A DNA stretch of 42,845 nt from Chloroflexota bacterium (GTDB lineage Bacteria; Chloroflexota; Anaerolineae; J036; Brachytrichaceae), in contig JAUQQA010000020.1 in NCBI GenBank assembly GCA_030550095.1, forward strand, positions 1-42,845. Direction: 5' to 3'. Below are positions 23,629 through 25,299 of the stretch, piece by piece; within the stretch, counting starts at the first letter, position 1; every line of letters starts with the position of its first letter. A model generated the notes under the pieces. It had not been told where the DNA came from and searched no databases. It saw only the letters and a program-made list of their open reading frames with translations. A program made the position numbers and the translations under genes.

Positions 23629-24402
23629 ATGCCGCCTTACCTCTCTGTCGTCATCCCCGCCTACAACGAGACTGCCAACATTCGCGCAGGCGCGTTGGAG
23701 TCGGTGGCGCGCTACTTGAGCCAGCAGCCGTACGAGTACGAGGTGATCGTTGTGGACGACGGCAGCGTGGACGAGACTGCCGCGCTTGCAGAGGCGTTTG
23801 CAGCCGAGCAACGCGGCTTCCGCGTGATCCGCAACCCGCACCGTGGCAAGGCATACACCGTCGCCACTGGGCTGCGCGCGGCGCGCGGCGAGATCGCGCT
23901 GTTCACCGACATGGATCAGGCTACCCCTATCCACGAAGTGGAGCGCCTGCTGCCCTGGTTCGCGCAAGGGTATGACGTGGTGATCGGCTCGCGCGGCACC
24001 TATCGGCGCAACGCGCCGCTCTGGCGCAAGTTCATGTCGCGCAGCCAAATTCTGCTGCGCAACTTGATCCTCGGCTTCCGCGAGATCACCGACACGCAAT
24101 GCGGCTTTAAGTCTTTCCGCGGTGCAGTCATCGCGCCCATCCTCGATCACCTTTACCTTTACAACTTCAATCGTCCCGTTGAGGCAAAAGGCGCAACAGT
24201 GACGGCGGGATTTGACGTGGAGGTGCTGTTCGTCGCCAAGCGGCTTGGGTTTCGCATCAAAGAGGTGCCTGTAGATTGGGACTACCGCCACTCGCGGCGC
24301 GTCAACCTAGTGCGCGATAGCGTGCGCGGGCTGCGGGAGCTGATCGAGATCCGCGCAGCCGACCTGCGCGGCGCCTATGCTCGCCCGGCGCGCACGTCCT
24401 GA
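23629..24402 (+). CDS. Family 2 glycosyltransferase, dolichyl-phosphate glucosyltransferase-like
   Basis: The 257-residue GT-A enzyme begins MPPYLSVVIPAYNETANI. Its nucleotide-sugar motifs are VVDDGS (42-46) and DMDQ (94-97, a DXD-type metal site), followed by GSRGTYRRNAPLWRKFMSR and TDTQCGFKSF, as in ALG5/dolichyl-phosphate glucosyltransferases and polyprenyl-phosphate sugar transferases. It has no C-terminal membrane domain and would make a lipid-linked sugar at the cytoplasmic face. It starts nine bases after the tyrS stop, so it is probably cotranscribed. Its 3' end overlaps the recombinase-like gene by 28 nt. Confidence 0.88.
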   Translation: MPPYLSVVIPAYNETANIRAGALESVARYLSQQPYEYEVIVVDDGSVDETAALAEAFAAEQRGFRVIRNPHRGKAYTVATGLRAARGEIALFTDMDQATPIHEVERLLPWFAQGYDVVIGSRGTYRRNAPLWRKFMSRSQILLRNLILGFREITDTQCGFKSFRGAVIAPILDHLYLYNFNRPVEAKGATVTAGFDVEVLFVAKRLGFRIKEVPVDWDYRHSRRVNLVRDSVRGLRELIEIRAADLRGAYARPARTS

Positions 24403-25286
24403 GGCGCCGTCTGCGCCAGCAGGCGCACCAGCTTCGCCTCCATCTCGCTCCACCCCACTGGTGAAAGCCCAAACTTGTATCGCATTGCCTCGGCGTCCAG
24501 CTCGCCTGCGCGGTAATCGCGCACGGCGCACGTCCAGCGCAGCATCTCGAAGGTGAGCGAATCCAAGCCTGCTGGCGGCGCAATGCGGCGGTTGAAGATG
24601 TACTCCAAGTTACGCCCCGTACAGGTGAACAGCCGCACTTTTGGCTGCGTGCGCGTGATGTGCAGTTCGAGCGCCTGCGCGCATCCCCGCGAGATCGGCA
24701 ACGAGCGTTCTTTGAACTTCAGGCGCTGCTCGGCGTAACGCACATGCACCAGGCGCTCTCCAAGATCCACATCGTCCAGCGTGAGGCGCAAGCACTCGCT
24801 CTTTTTCATGCCCGTCTCGAGGATCAGGGCGATGATCGCCAGCGGGCGCGTATCGGGCTTGGGCGCACGCGCCAGCGCCTCGGCGGCGCGCATCACCGCC
24901 TCGACTTGCGCGTCGGTGAGGTAAGCTGGCAACGGCTCTGGCGCAGGACGATAGGGGATGCCATCGGCGGGGTCTTGGGTGATGTAGCCCGATTCGCGCA
25001 GCCAGCGAAAAAACACCTTGATCGAGGTCAAGCGGCGTTCCAACGACTTAGGGCTGTTGGCACCTGGGCGATTTTCTTCGTGCTGCAAGAAGGCGCGAAT
25101 GTGCTCCGTGCGCAAATCGGCAACGCGCCAACGCGCCGTCGCTGAGGTGTCCTCGCGCGTGATGAAACGCACGAACAAGTTGAGGTCACCCCAGAACGCT
25201 TTGCGGGTGTTCTCGCTGATCGGACGCCGCTTTAGGTGAAGCGCATAGCGCGCCAACGCTTCATCGAGGCGCAACACCTCAGCCAT
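24375..25286 (-). CDS. Tyrosine-recombinase-fold protein lacking catalytic residues
   Basis: The 303-residue protein has both parts of the XerC/XerD fold. The N-terminal SAM-like core-binding domain (about 5-105) includes NTRKAFWGDLNLFVRFI and SLERRLTSIKVFFRWLRESGYI. The C-terminal domain follows from about 118 (LPAYLTDAQVEAVM). The active site is degraded: the first Arg is Lys161 (ETGMKKSE), the HxxR histidine is Glu247, the next conserved His is Leu274, and the nucleophilic Tyr aligns with Glu283. Only Arg250 of the pentad remains. This suggests a DNA-binding or structural role rather than strand exchange. The start is ATG 25286, seven bases after TACACT; the longer frame starts at 25310 inside the promoter. 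Confidence 0.75.
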   Translation of the reverse strand: MAEVLRLDEALARYALHLKRRPISENTRKAFWGDLNLFVRFITREDTSATARWRVADLRTEHIRAFLQHEENRPGANSPKSLERRLTSIKVFFRWLRESGYITQDPADGIPYRPAPEPLPAYLTDAQVEAVMRAAEALARAPKPDTRPLAIIALILETGMKKSECLRLTLDDVDLGERLVHVRYAEQRLKFKERSLPISRGCAQALELHITRTQPKVRLFTCTGRNLEYIFNRRIAPPAGLDSLTFEMLRWTCAVRDYRAGELDAEAMRYKFGLSPVGWSEMEAKLVRLLAQTAPQDVRAGRA

Positions 25287-25293
25287 ACGTTTG

Positions 25294-25299
25294 AGTGTA
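25294..25299 (-). promoter_or_regulatory. -10 element TACACT of the recombinase-fold gene
   Basis: The hexamer ends seven bases before ATG 25286, and no Shine-Dalgarno sequence is present. Confidence 0.5.

Follow-up and report, generated by a model that had tools for sequence, protein, structure and literature searches.

The chromosomal Xer recombinases XerA, XerC, XerD and XerH share a two-domain fold with an N-terminal core-binding domain, a second catalytic arginine (Arg-II) and a housekeeping-type distribution. In streptococci, a chromosomal, Xer-like protein (XerD-like, NCBIfam NF002685) is reported to lack the catalytic residues. A recombinase fold without catalysis is also found among phage lysogeny repressors, namely MrpR (YopR) of prophage SPbeta and SroF of phage phi3T; for MrpR, it has been shown that the fold is kept, that catalysis is lost and that the protein binds DNA as a repressor (PMC10516654). 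In the openly accessible literature searched, no account of dead tyrosine recombinases in Chloroflexota was found.

Here, we describe a catalytically dead Xer-type protein (XL) encoded in a 42,845-nucleotide stretch of a Chloroflexota contig (hereafter, the window). Its coding sequence occupies positions 24375–25286 of the minus strand and runs from an ATG at 25286–25284, a start backed by family-wide alignment, to a stop codon at 24377–24375; the 303 codons form an intact reading frame, in agreement with the preliminary description. The gene lies between tyrS/glycosyltransferase and trxA, diverges from trxA and overlaps the 3' end of the convergent glycosyltransferase gene by 28 nt. Its product comprises an N-terminal SAM-like core-binding domain (residues 12–98, positions 24993–25253, minus strand; Pfam PF02899, E 1.2e-8), with the class-invariant residues K80, R84, R85 and K90, and a C-terminal tyrosine-recombinase-fold domain (PF00589, Phage_integrase, E 8e-11), which Pfam delimits to residues 122–261 (positions 24504–24923, minus strand) and which, according to the AlphaFold model and PDB matches, continues to about residue 293.

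XL shares with XerA, XerC, XerD and XerH all the properties listed above but lacks Arg-I, His-II, His/Trp-III and the tyrosine nucleophile, and it scores far below the cut-offs of the curated NCBIfam XerC and XerD models (92.7 and 88.9 bits versus 335 and 330). The closest precedent is the SPbeta repressor MrpR. However, MrpR and SroF are phage lysogeny repressors linked to XL by fold similarity only, whereas XL is chromosomal, encoded by neither phage nor prophage, single-copy and spread across the class, with LexA control predicted for one family. The streptococcal XerD-like protein belongs to another phylum, and its profile matches XL weakly (21.6 versus a cut-off of 178 bits), providing no evidence for common descent of the inactive state in these two proteins. 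XL represents a new protein family that belongs neither to active Xer nor to phage MrpR, although its mode of action would be that of a dead, MrpR-like recombinase.

Active site and predicted fold

When XL was aligned with intact Xer-type relatives encoded in the same genome group, the catalytic positions fell exactly as numbered in the preliminary description, which had proposed that four of the five pentad residues are replaced. The catalytic residues of XL read K-E-R-L, compared with R-H-R-H/W in active enzymes, and only Arg-II is retained. Lys161 (24804–24806, minus strand, as for all residues below) replaces the catalytic Arg-I and is lysine in 72/72 readable high-scoring homologues. Glu247 (24546–24548) replaces His-II; the position is acidic in 70 of 72 (51 E, 19 D, 1 A, 1 N) and never histidine. 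Arg250 (24537–24539), the Arg-II, is kept in 72/72 and in 10/10 proteins of a second clade, Leu274 (24465–24467) replaces His/Trp-III and is L, V or I in every readable high-scoring homologue, and Glu283 (24438–24440) occupies the position of the nucleophilic tyrosine, where residues vary across the class and tyrosine never occurs. Among the 73 closest homologues, positions 161 and 250 are lysine and arginine wherever readable. Across all homologues Arg-II is nearly always kept, one distant protein having lost this residue as well.

Both refutation checks named in the preliminary description left its reading standing. No alternative alignment restored the pentad or revealed a conserved tyrosine elsewhere after Arg250, and none of the orthologues found carries an intact pentad: the tyrosine is absent from 93/93 distinct homologues in the phylum, and both histidines are also missing in every readable row. 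Because Arg-I, both histidines and the nucleophile are gone, XL is, at the level of sequence and fold, unable to cut or rejoin DNA by tyrosine-recombinase chemistry. A further residue, Trp279 (24450–24452), is threonine in intact relatives and class-invariant in XL (36/36). Within the class, K161, R250 and W279 never vary and E247 rarely does, which is tight conservation for disused residues and would suit an active site rewired around Lys161, Lys192, Arg250, Glu247 and Trp279, with XL still acting as an enzyme such as a nuclease or a ligase-like protein. We consider this reading very improbable, since the residue at the nucleophile position varies freely, Trp279 is not always kept and position 247 becomes glutamine outside the class, and, to our knowledge, no relative works in this way.

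The tyrosine-recombinase fold recognized in the preliminary description is borne out by both Pfam domains, by structure prediction and by comparison with the PDB. The AlphaFold model, predicted with high confidence (mean pLDDT 93.7), displays the full two-domain Xer-type fold and resembles XerA (Z 20.4) and DNA-bound XerH in the XerH-difH complex (Z 18.3 over 284 residues), with further matches to Tn1549 integrase, lambda integrase and Cre, and to the dead phage repressors SroF (Z 14.8) and MrpR (Z 12.6). As a separate observation, chain 14 of PDB entry 9i5v (401 aa), named RaiA (ribosome-associated inhibitor), matches XL over the first 200 residues (E 3.6e-5), which suggests either a Xer-RaiA fusion or a misnaming.

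In a profile built from 36 class sequences (A1), lysine and arginine account for 10 of the 24 invariant residues against a 15% background (P 0.0014), an enrichment that partly follows from shared descent with Xer. Specifically, the invariant positions 84, 85, 147, 194 and 250 are basic in intact Xer proteins as well, while K80, K162 and R225 are basic residues new to the class family. Together with the predicted clamp fold, these conserved residues fit a retained contact with DNA. The suggestion in the preliminary description of a repurposed DNA-binding protein likewise fits the intact clamp and the invariant basic residues.

Distribution, descent and genomic context

Of the 28 genomes in the window's family, 27 encode a full XL orthologue, each a single one, and neither any of the eight genera nor any of the 21 good-quality genomes lacks it; the named records are Thermoflexales, Candidatus Roseilinea and Anaerolineae bacteria. 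Across the class (Chloroflexota, Anaerolineae), 252/298 genomes contain a match at E 1e-18, nearly always single, although the few weakest of these (E about 1e-20) may be other recombinases. Searches with the A1 profile also reached more remote relatives elsewhere in the phylum; these fell into two bands (E 1e-60 to 1e-79 and 1e-32 to 1e-49), and all of them have lost the pentad. The feature is therefore far wider than first noted, extending over the family, the class and several further phylum groups. The novelty lies in how old and how widespread this protein family is, together with a predicted SOS link in one family of organisms.

In a tree with 12 intact Xer-like recombinases, the dead proteins fell on one side of a branch with support of 100/99.9 and split into four subclades. 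The simplest reading is that catalysis was lost once and that the proteins were inherited vertically afterwards. Pairwise dN/dS values of 0.04–0.21 indicate purifying selection. Loss of four of the five pentad residues is what a decaying integrase remnant, or a chance open reading frame, might display; the preliminary description had already thought decay unlikely. Purifying selection and class-wide single-copy retention exclude it, and a conserved promoter footprint and the lack of mobile-element neighbours also count against it; with these orthologues at hand, we regard decay as refuted and its residual probability as negligible.

Mobile-element cargo was considered as a further origin and rejected: no element genes lie nearby, and the matches in phage and viral contigs that were examined proved to be intact integrases. 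Plasmid matches covered only part of the query (<80%) and carried integrase annotations. The neighbours of XL are not conserved; the exceptions are a LuxR-type/kelch gene that lies convergent in some families and tilS, which two other families share. The genomic context therefore indicates no pathway. The product of the former gene is an HTH protein of the LuxR type whose C-terminal part is kelch-like, and it was observed near XL, often convergently, at about nine loci in several class families (L055, L056, L061, L068, L072 and others).

Every genome that was checked closely also encodes at least one intact tyrosine recombinase. This, and the resemblance of the fold to dif-bound Xer, would accommodate XL as a non-catalytic accessory subunit of an intact Xer-type recombinase, acting in mixed complexes at dif. 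However, the presence of XL is independent of canonical Xer (TIGR02225 at E 1e-40), XL being found in 213 of 253 genomes with it and 39 of 45 without it (Fisher P 0.82), and this lack of association argues against an obligate partnership. In addition, the accompanying intact recombinase differs between families, which is ill-suited to a dedicated partner, and an accessory role therefore appears improbable. Separately, most genomes of the window's family encode a second, catalytically intact tyrosine recombinase family (G000:C62:80934-81380, L073; L075; L076) besides canonical Xer (L074).

Promoter organization and a predicted SOS link

The preliminary description had assigned XL its own -10 element, which is confirmed as TACACT at 25294–25299 (minus strand), 7 nt before the ATG; the pattern TANNNT is kept 6–8 nt before the start in 25/26 family orthologues. 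Since a consensus scan revealed no full -35/-10 pair at XL, the promoter is classed as leaderless and -10-only. Upstream regions have diverged within the family except for a block of 18–20 nt beside the start codon, AGAACATNTGTGCTANACT-N6-ATG, comprising the leaderless -10 (TANACT) and GAAC-N4-GTGC, which overlaps the upstream side of the -10 in most family orthologues and is one mismatch from the LexA box GAAC-N4-GTTC. The latter is the LexA motif in Gram-positive bacteria (PMC3323433). The G of GTGC may reflect a trade-off between the box and an extended -10 (TGC-TANACT).

With up to one mismatch, the box is present in 21 of 26 family XL promoters, whereas shuffled sequences gave 0.4 on average and never more than 4. 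Searching seven family genomes with the 18-mer returned 17 sites, against one for the reversed pattern, and these precede XL, uvrA, radA, gyrA (in one genome) and a conserved gene of unknown function; at radA, the box lies 6 nt from the ATG, just as at XL. The lexA promoters of the family mostly contain one or two GAAC-N4-GTTC boxes. Because the box is common to uvrA and radA and GAAC-N4-GTTC occurs at lexA, XL is a predicted SOS (LexA) target in the window's family, with AGAACATTTGTGCTAAACT as the candidate LexA site.

In the window's own species and a congener (G015), the left half of the box (GAAC) has been lost while the -10 is kept. Elsewhere, the box is not enriched before XL, either in the class (6/45 versus 6% in control regions) or in the phylum (4/19 versus 9%). 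Given this loss and the lack of enrichment outside, an SOS role may be confined to the window's family. Two further observations concern genes behind LexA-type boxes. In three family genomes (L193, L184 and L134), a protein of unknown function of about 137 aa (M-T-x-[KR]-E-R-S-Q-D-L) is encoded directly behind such a box, and a gene for a radical-SAM type protein (L186, G021) starts 9 nt past one.

The main rival to a maintenance or repair function is that XL acts as a sequence-specific transcription repressor like MrpR and SroF, whose targets would be the XL gene itself and perhaps several more, with no connection to repair as such. The fold shared with these proteins, one of them a demonstrated DNA-binding repressor, agrees with such a role, as does an element in family f27 (CTATACGnAAAGRCTATRCG; L176-L179), which lies just downstream of the XL -10, where an autoregulatory site might be expected; genome searches placed it before XL only, plus one site with two mismatches. 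However, this element repeats in direct rather than inverted orientation and may instead belong to the promoter or the leader, no operator common to the families was found, and no conserved neighbour hints at a regulon. We consider a dedicated repressor unlikely, albeit less so than an accessory subunit.

Proposed role and implications

We favour, as the probable reading, a non-cutting DNA-binding derivative of Xer serving chromosome maintenance or the DNA-damage response. On this view, XL belongs to an ancient family of chromosomal, vertically inherited Chloroflexota proteins that arose from Xer-type tyrosine recombinases, and it has kept the two-domain clamp and conserved basic residues but lost catalysis. 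Most probably, XL assembles into a complex that binds DNA, duplex or branched, without cutting it, the target being either a specific operator, in a repressor-like manner, or a junction, in a repair-like manner. In most species of the family the leaderless promoter has a LexA-type operator over its -10, so that XL expression would be expected to rise with DNA damage, alongside uvrA and radA, as predicted from the promoter sequences. More tentatively, and with less confidence than in the general reading, the fold may have lost its catalysis in a single event that preceded the divergence of several Chloroflexota classes, and turned into a damage-responsive, junction- or site-binding maintenance factor kept phylum-wide.

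Annotation pipelines are likely to label XL a tyrosine recombinase, and counts of mobile-element markers or of Xer would therefore wrongly include it. More broadly, dead relatives of DNA-cutting enzymes reveal which parts of a fold are worth keeping without the chemistry. A housekeeping role for a pseudo-recombinase has not been described for the tyrosine-recombinase fold in the literature searched. The occurrence of a single-copy, chromosomal dead recombinase throughout a class and in further phylum groups, with predicted SOS control in one family, suggests that the fold has such an unrecognised housekeeping role.
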